A stretch of 64,000 nucleotides of DNA from Heliomicrobium modesticaldum Ice1 (lineage in GTDB: Bacteria; Bacillota; Desulfitobacteriia; Heliobacteriales; Heliobacteriaceae). The position numbers and the translations under genes are program-made. Shown here in pieces: positions 2,334 to 54,660 of the stretch (position 1 is its first letter; each line of letters opens with the position of its first letter). The stretch spans positions 1,479,001 through 1,543,000 of the forward strand of contig NC_010337.2 of assembly GCF_000019165.1 (NCBI RefSeq), read 5' to 3'. The notes beneath the pieces were generated by a model. That model was given only the letters and a program-made list of their open reading frames with translations, did no database searches and was not told the origin of the DNA.

Positions 2334-3047
2334 CTAGGCGCCCATTTCCTCGTCGCTGGCGCTCGGTAGCACGGCGATCTCGCAACAGGCGTCCCCCAAA
2401 GCCTGGCAAGACAGTGACTCCATGGCGGCCGGCCCGTAAAGGGTCTCCCAGAGGCCGCGCAGGATGGCGCGGTGTAGGGGGCAGGTCAGATGGTGGCGCC
2501 GTTCCGCCGATTCTCGGAAGGGACAATGGCGCAATCGAATGACCGTGCGGGCGGCATCACAAGTGACTGCTGAGACGGCAAGCGATTCGATGGCCGTCAA
2601 CTCGCCAAAGGACTCTGCTGCTTTTCCGTTCGCATCAGCCCCTTTTCCTGACCGGATGCCCTGGGCCAGGCGTACGCCGTGGGCGTGACCGACCTTGTTC
2701 AGTGCGACCGTCCCGGCGGCGCCGACTTCGTCGAGGGCGTCCAGGGTGAGGTCGCAGAGCAACTGGTACTCGCGAGGCGGAAAGTGCAGTGTAATCGCCT
2801 TTTTGCGCAGTGAATAGACCCGCCCTGGCCGACCGGGCATGGACTGGTGATCCCACCCCGATTCGAGCAACCCGATCTCCTCCAGCTTCGACAGGTGAAG
2901 GCGGGCCACGTTCGGATGGATGGAAAACTCCTGGGCGATCTCCTTGACCGTGCAGGTCGCGTTTGGGTGGTTGACGATATATTGATAGATGGAGAAACGA
3001 GTCCTATCGGCAAAAACTGAACTGATCTTCTGGGCGTCCTCAAACAC
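2334..3047 (-). CDS. Winged-helix regulator with C-terminal cysteine cluster (SufR/ArsR-like)
   Basis: A 237-residue DNA-binding regulator. Residues about 10-65 form a winged helix (TRFSIYQYIV, CTVKEIAQEFSIHPNVARLHLSKLEEIGLLES) typical of ArsR/SufR-like proteins. The C-terminal part carries RHCPF, LTCPLHRAIL and CQALGDACCEIAV, a cysteine pattern like that of regulators holding an Fe-S cluster (SufR type); metal or cluster binding is inferred. The start is GTG at 3045-3047, behind GAGGTGA. It is transcribed away from the MerR/B12 regulator across a 375-bp gap with a perfect palindrome. No suf genes adjoin it, so its target is unknown. Confidence 0.75.
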   Translation of the reverse strand: MFEDAQKISSVFADRTRFSIYQYIVNHPNATCTVKEIAQEFSIHPNVARLHLSKLEEIGLLESGWDHQSMPGRPGRVYSLRKKAITLHFPPREYQLLCDLTLDALDEVGAAGTVALNKVGHAHGVRLAQGIRSGKGADANGKAAESFGELTAIESLAVSAVTCDAARTVIRLRHCPFRESAERRHHLTCPLHRAILRGLWETLYGPAAMESLSCQALGDACCEIAVLPSASDEEMGA

Positions 3048-3129: not shown

Positions 3130-3284
3130 GCTTGCATGATCACCATTTTTATTATAAGAGATGTATCGATTTGCCGAAAGGCGCCGATACATTTTTCGCA
3201 GAGGCGCTCGTCGATATGCGGGTCCTTGGTCGGGCTAGAAAAAAGTGTCGCTGAAGTCAAACTATTTCCATATTCCATTATTGC

Positions 3285-3313
3285 TTGATGCAAAAAGAAA
3301 ATCATAGTATGAT
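3285..3313 (+). promoter_or_regulatory. Sigma-A promoter of the MerR/B12 regulator gene
   Basis: TTGATG (3285-3290), a 17-bp spacer and TATGAT (3308-3313). Transcription would start near 3320, about 100 bases before the chosen ATG at 3423, which argues against any earlier start codon. A short palindrome GTTCGAGCGAAC (3374-3385) lies in the leader. Confidence 0.7.
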
Positions 3314-3422: not shown

Positions 3423-4340
3423 ATGAGTACAAAGGATCACGGCTTTTACAACATCAAAGCGGTAGAGAAGATGACCGGCGTTGCCGCCGGGACCCTTCGC
3501 GTGTGGGAACACCGGTATCAGGTCATCCAGCCGGATCGCAACAAGGCGGGATACCGGGTGTACTCCCAAGAAGACGTGCAGACCATCCAGTGGCTGGCCC
3601 AGCAGGTCAAAAACGGCGTGACCATCGGACAGGCCGTCAAGATGCTGCACCAGAAGGATGTCTTGCGCCCCATCAGCCCCCTCGTCGACACCGGGAAAGA
3701 CGCCCTCGGCGAACTGCACCGTCGCATCGTCCTGGCCCTGGATGACTATGACGAGCAGAAGGCGAGCGCCGCCATGGAGGAGGCCTTGAGCCTTTTCAGC
3801 ATGGAGCGCGTCGCCGTCGAGCTGATCCTGCCCATCCTGCAGGAACTGGGCGAGCGCTGGGCGCGCCGTGAACTGACTGTCGCTCATGAACACTTCGCCT
3901 CCAACTTCTTTCGCGCCCGCCTGGCTGCCATGCTCTGCGCCTTGCCGGCTAACCGCGACCTGCCCCTTGTCCTGGCGGCTTGCGTCTCCGGTGAACACCA
4001 TGACCTGGGCCTGCTGATCTTCTCCATCTTCCTGCGCCGCCGCGGTTTCCGCGTCATTTACCTCGGCCAGGATCTGCCTACAGAAGATCTCTACGAAGTG
4101 GTAGGTGAGCTGCGCCCGCGCATCGTGGCCCTCTCGGTCGGGTCCCGTCTGCTGGTGCCTGAAGTGCTCCTGATCCATGAACAACTGATGGAAATGACCA
4201 AGCGGGGCGGTTTCCCCATGCGCGTCTGCATCGGCGGGCGCGGCGTCGATTATGACGTGGAAGCGCAGGAACATCTGAAGGGATCCTATATCGCCGGTAC
4301 CATCGAGTCTTGGGACAACTGGCTGCGCACCCTCGATTGA
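3423..4340 (+). CDS. MerR-family regulator with cobalamin-binding domain (CarH/LitR-like)
   Basis: A 305-residue DNA-binding protein. An N-terminal MerR helix-turn-helix (YNIKAVEKMTGVAAGTLRVWEHRY) is followed by a helical B12-capping domain and a Rossmann B12-binding domain. It shows both CarH signatures: W-x9-EH (W146, E156, H157) in the cap, and E-x-H-x2-G (E191, H193, G196), where the His is the expected lower cobalt ligand. In CarH the residue after the Trp is the His that forms the light-induced adduct; here it is Ala147. Adenosylcobalamin binding is likely, while light switching by the CarH mechanism is doubtful. The ATG at 3423 follows AAAGGAG; earlier in-frame starts overlap the promoter. 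Confidence 0.88.
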   Translation: MSTKDHGFYNIKAVEKMTGVAAGTLRVWEHRYQVIQPDRNKAGYRVYSQEDVQTIQWLAQQVKNGVTIGQAVKMLHQKDVLRPISPLVDTGKDALGELHRRIVLALDDYDEQKASAAMEEALSLFSMERVAVELILPILQELGERWARRELTVAHEHFASNFFRARLAAMLCALPANRDLPLVLAACVSGEHHDLGLLIFSIFLRRRGFRVIYLGQDLPTEDLYEVVGELRPRIVALSVGSRLLVPEVLLIHEQLMEMTKRGGFPMRVCIGGRGVDYDVEAQEHLKGSYIAGTIESWDNWLRTLD

Positions 4341-5397: not shown

Positions 5398-6516
5398 ATG
5401 GCAAAAGAGGAAACCTATTATCAGTACTTAAAGCGCCGCGGCGTCAGCCGGCGCGATTTCCTCAAGTTCTGTACCGTCATGGCCGCCTCCCTCGGTTTGA
5501 GCGCCGGATCGGTCCCGAAGATTGCCGAAGCCTTAGAAACGAAAAAACGGATCCCTGTCATCTGGCGTCACTTGGTGGAATGCACCTGCTGCACCGAATC
5601 CTTCATCCGCTCTCACCACCCCATCGCTGCCGATATCCTGCTCAACATGATCTCCCTCGACTACGATGAAACCTTGATGGTCGCTGCTGGCGAGCGGGCC
5701 GAAGAGGCCGCCCGCAAGAGCATGGAGGAGAACAAAGGCAACTACATCCTGGCTGTGGAAGGGGCCGTGTCGACGAAGGACGGTGGCATCTACTGCGTCC
5801 TGGCCGGCCGGAGTTCTGTCGAGATCCTCAAAGAGGAAGCCAAAAACGCCAAGGCGATCATCGCCTGGGGCTCCTGCGCCGTCAACGGTTGCATCGCTGC
5901 CGCCAATCCGAATCCCTCCGGTTCCGTGCCGGTCCAGGAGATCATCAAAGACAAGCCCATCATCAACGTGCCCGGCTGCCCGCCCATCGCCGAGGTGATG
6001 GCCGGCGTGATCACCCATCTGATCACCTTCGACCGCCTGCCGGAACTGGACCGCGAAGGCCGGCCGAAAGCCTTCTACGGTCACCGCATCCATGACAAGT
6101 GTAACCGCCGTGCTTATTTCGATGCGGGGATGTTTGTGGAATCCTTTGACGACGAGGGGGCCAAGCAGGGCTGGTGTCTCTACAAAGTCGGCTGCAAAGG
6201 GCCGAACACCTACAACTCCTGCGCCAACATGGAGTGGAACGGCGGCGTCAGCTATGACATCAAGTCCGGCCACCCTTGCATCGGCTGTTCGGAAAAAGGC
6301 TTCTGGGACAACACAGGCGGCCAGTCCTTCTACACCCACCTGGCCGAGGTGCCGGGCCTGCAGATCGGCATGAACGTCGACCAGTTCGGCATCGCCGCCG
6401 TCGGGGCCGCCGCTGTCGGCGCCGCCGTGCACGCCGGCTTCTCAGCCGTCACCAAGCGGGCGGAAGAGAAGAGGGAAGCCAAAGGCGGCTGCAACAAAGA
6501 TTCTCTGGGAGGTTGA
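5398..6516 (+). CDS. hupS: Uptake [NiFe] hydrogenase small subunit, Tat-exported
   Basis: The electron-transfer subunit of a group 1 membrane-bound H2-oxidising hydrogenase; it holds three Fe-S clusters between the Ni-Fe site and cytochrome b. The twin-arginine signal is RRGVSRRDFLKFC (residues 13-25). Cluster ligands are seen in VECTCCTESF, GSCAVNGC, VPGCPP, the YKVGCKGP/YNSCANMEWN region and HPCIGCSEKGFW. The C-terminus has a hydrophobic Ala/Gly/Val helix (VGAAAVGAAVHAGF) as membrane anchor. 372 residues is normal length. ATG at 5398 follows AGGGGTG. First gene of the operon; the complex should face the outer side of the membrane. Confidence 0.96.
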   Translation: MAKEETYYQYLKRRGVSRRDFLKFCTVMAASLGLSAGSVPKIAEALETKKRIPVIWRHLVECTCCTESFIRSHHPIAADILLNMISLDYDETLMVAAGERAEEAARKSMEENKGNYILAVEGAVSTKDGGIYCVLAGRSSVEILKEEAKNAKAIIAWGSCAVNGCIAAANPNPSGSVPVQEIIKDKPIINVPGCPPIAEVMAGVITHLITFDRLPELDREGRPKAFYGHRIHDKCNRRAYFDAGMFVESFDDEGAKQGWCLYKVGCKGPNTYNSCANMEWNGGVSYDIKSGHPCIGCSEKGFWDNTGGQSFYTHLAEVPGLQIGMNVDQFGIAAVGAAAVGAAVHAGFSAVTKRAEEKREAKGGCNKDSLGG

Positions 6517-6522
6517 ACATAC

Positions 6523-8259
6523 ATGGCAGAACGCATCGTCGTCGACCCTGTCACAAGGATTGAAGGCCACCTGCGCGTGGAAGCGATGGTGGAAGGCGGC
6601 AAGATCGTCGACGCCGTCAGCGCCGGCACCATGATCCGCGGTCTCGAGATCATCCTCCGCGACCGCGACCCTCGCGACGCCTGGGCGCTCGTCCAGCGCA
6701 TCTGTGGCGTCTGCACCACCATTCATGCCCTGGCCTCGGTGCGATCCGTGGAAGACGCCCTCAAGATCCGCATCCCCAAAAACGCCGAACTGATCCGCAA
6801 CATCATGTTCACGACCCTCTATGTCCATGACCATGTGGTCCACTTCTACCATCTGCACGCCCCTGACTGGGTCGACATCCCGAACGCGCTGAAGGCCGAC
6901 CCGGCCGCCACGGCCCAACTGGCCCAGAGCATCTCTCGCTGGCCCAAGTCCACCGCCGGTTACTTCAAGGATGTTCAGACGAAGCTGAAGACCTTCGTCG
7001 ACAGCGGTCAACTGGGCATCTTCGCCAACGCCTACTGGGGCCATCCGGCCTACAAGCTGCCGCCGGAAGCCAACCTGATGGCGGTGGCCCACTACCTGGA
7101 GGCGCTCTCCTGGCAGAAGGAGATCGTCAAGATCCACACCATCTTCGGCGGCAAGAACCCCCACCCGAACTATGTCGTCGGCGGCATGGCCTCGGCCATC
7201 GACATCAACAGCGACAACGCCCTCAACATCGAGCGCTTCAACATGATCGGCCGGCTCATCGACGAGGCCATGGAGTTTGTCGAGCAGGTCTACATCCCCG
7301 ACCTGCTGGCCATCGCCTCCTTCTACAAGGACACGGCGGCCTATGGCGGCGGCGTGGGCAACTTCCTCTGCTACGGTGATCTGCCCACCACCCATATCAA
7401 CGACCCGTTGGGCTTCCTCTTTCCGCGCGGCGTCATCCTCAACAAAAACCTGGGCGAGGTCCTCGACGTGGATCCCCGCGACCCCGAGCAGATCCTCGAA
7501 TATACGGACCACTCCTGGTATAAAAATTCCAAAAGCGGCCTGCATCCCTGGGCCGGCGAGACGAACATCCACTATACCGGTCCCAAGCCGCCTTATAAGA
7601 CCCTCGACGAGTCAGGCGCCTTCAACCAGGCCTACTCCTGGCTCAAATCGCCCCGCTGGCGCGAAAAGTCCGTCGAAGTGGGCCCCCTGGCCCGCATGCT
7701 CGTCGCCTATGCCAAGAAGGACTGCAAGGCCCACGACCTCGTCAAGAGCGAAGTTGACAAGGTTCTCGGCGGCCTCGGCGTCGGTCCGGAAGCCCTCTTC
7801 TCGACCCTCGGCCGGACGGCGGCCCGCGGTATCGAGACGAAGCTTTGCGCCGCCTGGCTGAAGCAGTTCTACAATGAACTGCTCGCCAACATCAAGAGCG
7901 GCGACCAGACCACCTTCAACAAGGAGCGCTGGGAGCCTTCGACCTGGGACAAGGACTGCAAGGGCGTCGGCATCGCCGAAGCGCCCCGCGGCGCCCTCGG
8001 CCACTGGATCCACATCCAGAACGGCAAGATCGCCAACTACCAGTGTGTCGTCCCGACGACCTGGAACGGTTCCCCGAAGGACCATAAGAACCAGCCCGGC
8101 GCCATCGAGGCGGCCCTCATCGGCACTCCCCTGGTCAAACCGGAGGAGCCGGTGGAACTGTTGCGGACGATCCACTCCTTCGACCCCTGTCTGGCCTGCG
8201 CCGCCCACCTTACGGACAGGGAGAACCGGGAGATCACCACCATCGATGTCTTGCGGTAA
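6523..8259 (+). CDS. hupL: Uptake [NiFe] hydrogenase large subunit
   Basis: The catalytic subunit that splits H2 at a Ni-Fe(CN)2CO centre. The N-terminal L1 motif RICGVCTTIHALASV (about residues 63-77) and the C-terminal L2 motif DPCLACAAH supply the four Ni-ligating cysteines. The 16 residues after that His (LTDRENREITTIDVLR) form the peptide expected to be removed by the HupD endopeptidase. 578 residues, as usual. It starts 6 bp after hupS with GGGAGG upstream. It has no signal peptide and would be exported folded with HupS. Confidence 0.97.
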   Translation: MAERIVVDPVTRIEGHLRVEAMVEGGKIVDAVSAGTMIRGLEIILRDRDPRDAWALVQRICGVCTTIHALASVRSVEDALKIRIPKNAELIRNIMFTTLYVHDHVVHFYHLHAPDWVDIPNALKADPAATAQLAQSISRWPKSTAGYFKDVQTKLKTFVDSGQLGIFANAYWGHPAYKLPPEANLMAVAHYLEALSWQKEIVKIHTIFGGKNPHPNYVVGGMASAIDINSDNALNIERFNMIGRLIDEAMEFVEQVYIPDLLAIASFYKDTAAYGGGVGNFLCYGDLPTTHINDPLGFLFPRGVILNKNLGEVLDVDPRDPEQILEYTDHSWYKNSKSGLHPWAGETNIHYTGPKPPYKTLDESGAFNQAYSWLKSPRWREKSVEVGPLARMLVAYAKKDCKAHDLVKSEVDKVLGGLGVGPEALFSTLGRTAARGIETKLCAAWLKQFYNELLANIKSGDQTTFNKERWEPSTWDKDCKGVGIAEAPRGALGHWIHIQNGKIANYQCVVPTTWNGSPKDHKNQPGAIEAALIGTPLVKPEEPVELLRTIHSFDPCLACAAHLTDRENREITTIDVLR

Positions 8260-8271
8260 GGAGGTAGGGCC

Positions 8272-8973
8272 ATGCAAGATATGAAAACCGGCCTGCGCTG
8301 CCTGCAGACGGTCTATGTCTGGGAACTGCCGGTCCGGTTTTACCACTGGGTGAATGCCCTCTGCATCGTCGTCCTCATGGCGACAGGCCTTTACATCGGC
8401 AACCCTGTCTTCAAGCCGACAGTTGTCAACGGCGAGGCGACGACCGTCTTTTGGATGGGCAAGGCCTTCATGTGGCACATCGCCGCCGGCTACGTCTTTA
8501 TCGCTATCTATCACTTCCGTCTCTACTGGGCCTTCGTGGGCAACGAGTATGCTCGCAGCCATCACTGGCCTTGGCAGAAGGAGTTCTGGCAAGAGTTTTT
8601 TGACGTGCTCCTTCACTACCTCTTCCTCAAGCACCACCACCAGGAGCACCTGGGCCACAACCCGGTCGCCAACCTGGCCTACTTCGGCTTCATCATGGTC
8701 GGCTCCATCTTCATGTCGGTCACCGGACTGGCCATGTACGGCGAGCTTCATCCAAATGGCATGGTCGGCAGCGCCTTTGGCTGGGTCTTCACCCTTCTTG
8801 GGCAGAGCTTCACCGTGCACATGCTGCACCGGCTGATGGCCTGGGGGATCGTGGCCTTCGTCATCGTCCACCTCTACCTGTCTATCCGCCACGATATGTT
8901 TGCCCGCAACGGCACCCTCTCTTCCATGGTCAGCGGCTATAAGTTCGACTGCCGGGAAAACGGCAGGGCCTAG
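8272..8973 (+). CDS. hupC: Hydrogenase b-type cytochrome subunit
   Basis: An integral membrane di-heme cytochrome b that passes electrons from HupSL to the quinone pool. 233 residues with four hydrophobic helices and membrane-placed histidines in the HupC/HyaC pattern: RFYHWVNALCI, FMWHIAAGYVFIAIYHFRLYW, HMLHRLMAWGIVAFVIVHLYLS. ATG at 8272 follows GGAGGTAGGGCC, 12 bp after hupL. Confidence 0.94.
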   Translation: MQDMKTGLRCLQTVYVWELPVRFYHWVNALCIVVLMATGLYIGNPVFKPTVVNGEATTVFWMGKAFMWHIAAGYVFIAIYHFRLYWAFVGNEYARSHHWPWQKEFWQEFFDVLLHYLFLKHHHQEHLGHNPVANLAYFGFIMVGSIFMSVTGLAMYGELHPNGMVGSAFGWVFTLLGQSFTVHMLHRLMAWGIVAFVIVHLYLSIRHDMFARNGTLSSMVSGYKFDCRENGRA

Positions 8974-54344: not shown

Positions 54345-54402
54345 GATCATGACTTAAAATAGGGCCGCAAAGGTCAGATGACGGAACGACAAGTGAATCC
54401 AT

Positions 54403-54660
54403 AGCGCCAGAACCGGCAGGACATTCAGACGAATCAGGCCGAACCATCAGCAGTCAGCGCAAAAAAGCGCATGAGTACATATCGAGCAGGATTCGCAGAC
54501 AGCCGGTTGACGAGGAAGGGGTTTATCGAAGTTTTCGGCGGATGCCCCTCGGCCGCTCACGGCCGCAGCCAAGCCACAAATTCCGGGAGCAATCGCGGGG
54601 ACAAAGGGCTGGTGGTGAGTGTCGGGATAGCTCTGTGCCTTTCGGCCGCCAACACTTTCG
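54403..54660 (+). ncRNA. glmS ribozyme: glmS ribozyme-riboswitch
   Basis: A self-cleaving RNA that uses glucosamine-6-phosphate as cofactor and destabilises glmS mRNA. Conserved pieces occur in order: AGCGCCAGAACCGGC at 54403-54417 (cleavage expected between A54403 and G54404), GGTTGACGAGGAAGGGGTTT (54505-54524), ATCGAAGTTTTCGGCGGATG (54525-54544), CCCCTCGG and GGGGACAAAGGGCTGG. The 3' boundary is approximate. Confidence 0.93.

Follow-up and report, generated by a model that had tools for sequence, protein, structure and literature searches.

A probable CarH/LitR-type AdoCbl regulator with alanine at the bis-His position in Heliomicrobium modesticaldum

Introduction

Heliobacteria are strict anaerobes, unlike the host of the CarH photoreceptor of Thermus thermophilus (TtCarH). 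The final, bis-His light state of TtCarH requires both O2 and an upper histidine (PMC10442372), and thus, on published work and general knowledge, a strict anaerobe could not use it. A carH-like gene of H. modesticaldum Ice1 lies in a 64,000-nucleotide stretch of the genome (hereafter the window, meaning the whole stretch of DNA that was analysed) and encodes a protein with Ala where that histidine stands. Is this a light-responsive regulator at all and, if so, by what route does it respond and which genes does it control?

The protein is probably a class I CarH/LitR-type AdoCbl photoreceptor-repressor of heliobacteria whose light state would be independent of bis-His ligation, a reading drawn from sequence, a structural model and analogy. 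It is supported by the succession of domains, the residues of the AdoCbl signature, a predicted model with the fold of CarH, the genomic supply of AdoCbl and co-occurrence with phototrophy. We regard the protein as an ordinary member of the CarH family; of greater interest is which genes of energy metabolism it may possibly control.

The gene and its domains

3285-3313, + strand: sigma-70-like promoter of the carH-like gene, TTGATG-17-TATGAT, kept in Heliomicrobium and Heliobacterium
3423-4340, + strand: carH-like gene, 305 aa, ATG to TGA
Residues 9-77 of the protein: MerR DNA-binding domain, with a linker after it
Residues 99-169: four-helix B12-binding_2 domain
Residues 183-281: Rossmann B12-binding domain

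The genome of H. modesticaldum is one contig of 3,075,407 bp, and the relatives compared with it are, in GTDB, Heliobacterium mobile, H. chlorum, Heliorestis and Heliophilum. An alternative, longer reading frame has a TTG start from 3285, but since this start lies inside the -35 box of the promoter and AAAGGAG precedes the ATG at 3423, the ATG is the likely start. All three domains score above their Pfam cut-offs (MerR_1 7e-15, B12-binding_2 2e-13, B12-binding 6e-13), and their succession, MerR, then B12-binding_2, then B12-binding, is the one that defines class I of CarH/LitR. The top NCBIfam model is CarH (NF052513, an equivalog), at 164.5 bits against a cut-off of 400, a shortfall that counts against the preferred reading. 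However, none of the genomes searched passes the 400-bit cut-off, the Thermus control included, and therefore NF052513 does not delimit the wider CarH family. For an AlphaFold2 model (pLDDT 84), structural comparison gives a Z of 24.8 with the photocobilin SasPcob, of about 21.4-22.2 with TtCarH wild type and H132A, and of 20.8 with CtMerR; these matches span the whole cobalamin domain and are evidence of fold, not function.

Signature residues of the cobalamin pocket

3858-3863, + strand: codons of W146-A147 (TtCarH W131-H132), Trp kept, Ala replacing the bis-His ligand
3885-3893, + strand: codons of H155-E156-H157, E156/H157 being the EH of Wx9EH
3990-4001, + strand: G190-E-H-H193 (GxxH), H193 being the predicted lower cobalt ligand
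4065-4079, + strand: G215-xxx-P219 (GxxxP signature loop)
4140-4142, + strand: G240, third residue of the SxT/V element, Gly in heliobacteria only (sample of 66)

A phmmer search of the PDB ranks Thermus CarH/LitR first (3whp, 5c8d; about 1e-33), and the alignment crosses the first motif without a gap (GEAWHRGEIGVAEEHL in T. thermophilus, GERWARRELTVAHEHF in H. modesticaldum), while the second motif reads GERHEIG and GEHHDLG, respectively. With the numbering of T. thermophilus HB8 CarH as the ruler, G128, W131, H132, E141 and H142 correspond to G143, W146, A147, E156 and H157 of the window protein, and G174, H177 and P203 to G190, H193 and P219. The class I motifs are both present: Wx9EH is in register (W146/E156/H157), and the D/ExHx2G/P lower-ligand motif is E191-x-H193-x2-G196. 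The original prediction had described W-x9-EH and E-x-H-x2-G as kept and had placed Ala where Thermus CarH has its bis-His histidine; both descriptions are confirmed by the alignment, the Ala147 codon being GCG at 3861-3863. The same Ala is found in the Heliomicrobium and Heliobacterium orthologues, and the histidine of the bis-His light state, absent here, is not a class-defining feature. H155 is a common variant, shared by 41 of 66 relatives.

The residues GxxW, EH, GxxH and GxxxP have been proposed as a light-response signature (Yu et al., PMC11796333), and this AdoCbl photoreceptor signature (SignatureFinder) is complete in the window protein (G143/W146, E156/H157, G190/H193, G215/P219). 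As for the remainder of the B12 motif (x41-SxT/V-x22-27-GG), S238 after x41 and G271G272 are present, the third residue is Gly and the loop has about 30 residues. This Gly in place of T/V counts against the preferred reading; residue 240 is Gly in 7/7 signature-intact heliobacterial proteins and in 0/59 others, and the longer loop before GG is likewise heliobacteria-specific within the sample. A CarA-like protein would have Wx9EH broken and ExHx2G kept, whereas the window protein keeps Wx9EH.

The missing histidine among relatives

CarH-like proteins were gathered from nine Heliobacteriaceae genomes, Thermus, one Caballeronia plasmid, a 299-genome sample of the phylum and a 299-genome sample of the Bacilli-type class, and the 66 in which W, EH and the lower His are all kept formed the survey set. 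The residue after the Trp is Glu in 51 of them, Ala in 6, His in 6, and Ser, Lys and Arg in 1 each. Every His-type protein (6/66) is from Thermus, the Ala and Ser types (7/66) are all heliobacterial, and the Glu types (51/66) are all from the Bacilli sampled. Judged from these sequences, the position is variable, and an absent His, shared by almost all Bacillota relatives, is ordinary for this phylum. Phylogenetically, the heliobacterial proteins are a single clade (100/100) that stands next to two clades of Glu-type Bacilli proteins and away from Thermus; since they group with Glu-bearing Bacilli, there is no sign of histidine loss in the heliobacterial line. Loss of the histidine as an adaptation to anaerobic life was considered and rejected, because the homologues of Bacilli, a class with many aerobes, also lack it. 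Thus, the idea in the original prediction that the absent His makes the protein peculiar is not supported in view of the Glu in 51/66 relatives and the Arg in light-responsive CtMerR, but its broader assignment to the CarH/LitR-type AdoCbl regulators stands, on domain order, motif register, signature and fold match. The position was indeed termed 'semi-conserved' by Takano 2016, as cited in PMC9758184.

One Glu-type Bacilli carH adjoins a phytoene desaturase gene (326.9 bits against a cut-off of 238.1), which makes Glu at this position compatible with a role as carotenoid regulator, and a second has a partial, weaker phytoene desaturase match adjacent to it. The nearest Bacilli carH genes (loci L052, L056, L059 and L066) adjoin MecA-like ORFs, not carotenoid genes, and in single cases a YpdA-like or a glutamate-dehydrogenase-like ORF is next to carH (all named by eye). 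These neighbours of the nearest Bacilli genes are a hint of a non-carotenoid CarH subgroup.

Occurrence and sensor decay in heliobacteria

Across 82 genomes of the class, the carH-like gene is present in all 8 BchX-bearing heliobacteria and in 0/74 other genomes, which include one same-family genome without BchX (87% complete). The single clade of the heliobacterial proteins makes this one evolutionary event, not eight. BchX scores over its curated cut-off in this genome, in agreement with the earlier suggestion of a likely phototroph. Moreover, since a CobA-type adenosyltransferase is found in all nine family genomes, AdoCbl can be made.

Identity to the window protein, given for the DNA-binding and the sensor domain, is 97-99% and 84-93% within Heliomicrobium/Heliobacterium, 89-92% and 55-57% in Heliorestis, and 93% and 47% in Heliophilum. 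By sequence comparison, the DNA-binding domain has hardly changed across the heliobacterial carH family, but the sensor is decaying in two lineages, in Heliophilum and in the paralogues of Heliorestis. Five Heliomicrobium/Heliobacterium species have all signature residues, and Heliorestis keeps W, EH and H at about 56% sensor identity.

Heliophilum fasciatum, loci L043 and L010: syntenic carH orthologue, between the icd-mdh-side regulator and hydrogenase genes
Heliorestis, locus L011, 1501-2418, and locus L012: second CarH-like gene, in a flagellar cluster, W and EH gone

The H. fasciatum copy has lost the equivalents of G128, W131 and E141, its pocket reading Q/I/D and A-H. Because a syntenic orthologue has lost the W, E and G of the pocket, AdoCbl sensing appears dispensable in Heliophilum, which speaks against the preferred reading. 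By analogy, this copy and the paralogues of Heliorestis resemble the transition from CarH to CarA reported for Myxococcus (PMC9304148); their order is not settled by the tree (AU p 0.04-0.09). The Heliorestis paralogue has csrA, a ferritin-like gene and flagellin as neighbours (named by eye). In another genome of the same genus as H. modesticaldum (G004, loci L005 and L028), carH is frameshifted after codon 282, with the last ~23 residues in another frame, either through a sequencing error or as a C-terminal change.

Neighbouring genes

2334-3047, - strand: HTH_20 regulator, divergent from carH, with a weak V4R-like C-terminal domain below the Pfam cut-off
5398-8973, + strand: hydrogenase operon downstream of carH, small and large subunit, cytochrome b by eye

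The HTH_20 regulator adjoins carH in 8/8 heliobacteria, and the hydrogenase operon is linked to carH in 3/4 genera. The name V4R derives from BchJ, a bacteriochlorophyll 4-vinyl reductase. With its largely invariant CxFxE...CxLH...C residues, the HTH_20/V4R-like regulator is a possible metal, Fe-S or tetrapyrrole sensor. An inverted repeat, TGTATCGATTTGCCGAAAGGCGCCGATACA, lies in its 5' region at 3162-3191; the arms show compensating changes in two other Heliomicrobium genomes, and the element is absent from Heliobacterium. Elsewhere in the window, a glmS ribozyme (54392-54622, + strand; Rfam, 89.8 bits) lies upstream of a glucosamine-6-phosphate synthase gene.

Operators and candidate targets

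CarH operators consist of 11-bp TnnACA repeats in tandem (PMC9304148), of which class I would have three or four at its target promoters. No canonical operator was found at the carH locus, which weighs against the preferred reading, and none at the hydrogenase operon or, beyond chance, in the window as a whole. In this genome, the repeat is matched with up to one mismatch at 0.416, 0.646, 0.787, 2.193, 2.777 and 2.863 Mb, and nowhere near the photosynthesis cluster (BchX at 1.337 Mb). Exact triple repeats in eight genomes number 4 compared with 6 in a reversed control, an absence of enrichment that is also unfavourable to it. When one mismatch is allowed, the Heliomicrobium genomes have 33 matches against 11 in the control, 5/33 coming from one tandem coding repeat, and Heliobacterium has 37 against 45, with no enrichment.

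With one mismatch allowed, three sites of this genome have counterparts in the orthologous intergenic regions of two further Heliomicrobium species: near sdhC, near nuoA, and near a small ORF by a polyphosphate-kinase-like gene. By comparison of the listed sequences, 0/6 control sites appear to recur. The nuoA site was rejected as a CarH-type operator, since its whole 28 bp is conserved and the conservation is thus not repeat-specific. The same holds for a triple repeat close to the paralogue of Heliorestis convoluta, which was rejected because the site is not seen in H. acidaminivorans.

Locus L123, 2866-2893 (also loci L126, L130, L143 and L144): candidate site upstream of sdhC, TACACATACCATCTTCATTTCATAGACA, 11/12 core positions

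The sdhC-side triple repeat is found in five species of two genera, at the aligned place also in H. mobile and H. chlorum. Across the five species, 12/12 core positions are invariant versus 3/16 spacer positions, an invariance of the core that is partly built in because the sites were picked by their core; in shuffled H. mobile context, such a site lay within 10 nt in 5/20,000 trials. Because the site has sdhC on one side and a divergent gene, thioredoxin-reductase-like by eye, on the other, either gene could be the target. We treat it as a post-hoc lead, not a regulon, any regulon claim being exploratory. The carotenoid or photosynthesis cluster is unlikely to hold the targets, and the sdhC promoter region may be regarded as the best candidate.

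Proposed mechanism and alternatives

In the dark, AdoCbl would be bound base-off/His-on via H193, while W146 and E156 would hold its adenosyl group, and its binding would make the protein assemble head to tail into a dimer or tetramer that attaches to TnnACA repeats of 11 bp in tandem. Under green or blue light, the Co-C bond would break and adenosine would leave, whereupon the assembly would loosen without a His above the cobalt, where water or Glu156 may stand, as in CtMerR and the photocobilins. Since the cell is strictly anaerobic, photolysis would yield Co(I)/Co(II) instead of Co(III). We are doubtful of a more specific version, in which an O2-independent AdoCbl photoreceptor of strictly anaerobic phototrophs would switch electron-transport and TCA genes (sdhC, perhaps nuoA) rather than carotenoid genes, with release via a water/Glu-ligated or base-off Co(II) state instead of bis-His Co(III).

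Published proteins without the upper His bear on the proposed light response. TtCarH H132A binds AdoCbl and is photolysed, yet is mostly tetrameric after light, and its crystals show barely any movement (Poddar et al., PMC10442372); an earlier study reported light disassembly of the same variant, in conflict with Poddar et al. (cited in PMC10442372). The tetramer and the unmoved crystals favour a protein that binds AdoCbl as a cobalamin or redox-status signal, in which light has no physiological role and photolysis does not dissociate the oligomer without the upper His, and the photosynthesis cluster of this genome, devoid of the repeat at up to one mismatch, fits as well. Such a sensor, in its cobalamin form one of the two options in the original prediction, is nevertheless unlikely, since CtMerR, with Arg at the position, goes from tetramer to monomer in light, with water and the EH glutamate above the cobalt in its light structure (PMC11796333), the gene is found within the class only in phototrophs, and some Glu-type Bacilli relatives adjoin crt genes. 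SasPcob, with Gln at the position, has a water-ligated light state and, with biliverdin, goes from dimer to monomer (PMC10979010).

The protein might also be en route to a B12-independent, CarA-like repressor, its DNA-binding domain mattering and its sensor relaxing, as the gap between 93% and 47% identity and the lost G/W/E in Heliophilum, the loss of W and EH in the Heliorestis paralogues, and the heliobacteria-specific G240 and longer loop before GG would suggest. The intact signature of the five Heliomicrobium/Heliobacterium species and the W, EH and H that Heliorestis retains at ~56% sensor identity argue the other way, and we hold this course to be quite improbable. Weak matches to corrinoid methyltransferase proteins would accord with a cobalamin-binding or corrinoid-protein homologue without a CarH-like role; this is very hard to believe of a protein with a MerR DNA-binding domain and the adenosyl-capping W and EH, for which CarH is by far the best NCBIfam and PDB match, and the alignment has largely refuted it already.

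Should the gene act as a light switch of energy metabolism, heliobacteria would have in it a first candidate light-responsive transcription factor, none having been described in the open-access literature searched. In addition, because heliobacteria live without O2 and carry Ala, the effects of photolysis itself can be told apart from those of bis-His ligation with the help of this natural Ala variant and the Glu-type proteins of Bacilli.

Comparison with known systems

TtCarH (5C8D/E/F) resembles the window protein in domain order, Wx9EH, ExHx2G, GxxxP and fold, and its H132A variant (8C35-8C37) has at position 132 the Ala that the window protein carries naturally. In contrast, the sensor domains are 32% identical, the window protein has P175 for G160, H192 for R176 and G240 for V, and its gene does not adjoin crt genes. 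The CarH/LitR proteins of Bacilli, of which the CarH of B. megaterium is the one studied in published work, belong to the same phylum and the nearest tree clades and have no His at 132, but they carry Glu rather than Ala and some adjoin carotenoid genes. CarA of Myxococcus xanthus is similar to the Heliorestis paralogues and the Heliophilum copy, with the lower-ligand motif kept and Wx9EH broken, whereas the window protein keeps Wx9EH. The photocobilins SasPcob and AbDPcob and AerR of Rhodobacter capsulatus use AdoCbl/B12 domains of the same fold in light sensing, SasPcob also without a bis-His state, although their domain partners are different and AerR is a CrtJ antirepressor without a MerR domain. 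CtMerR of Chloracidobacterium thermophilum (8JBS/8JBT) is likewise a MerR-B12 regulator without the upper His and with the full signature; it differs in its Arg at the position, in a DNA-binding domain only 25% identical to that of TtCarH, and in a light response that is proven. With CtMerR and the photocobilins as precedents, a light response of the window protein by a route other than bis-His ligation, the second option in the original prediction, is plausible by analogy.
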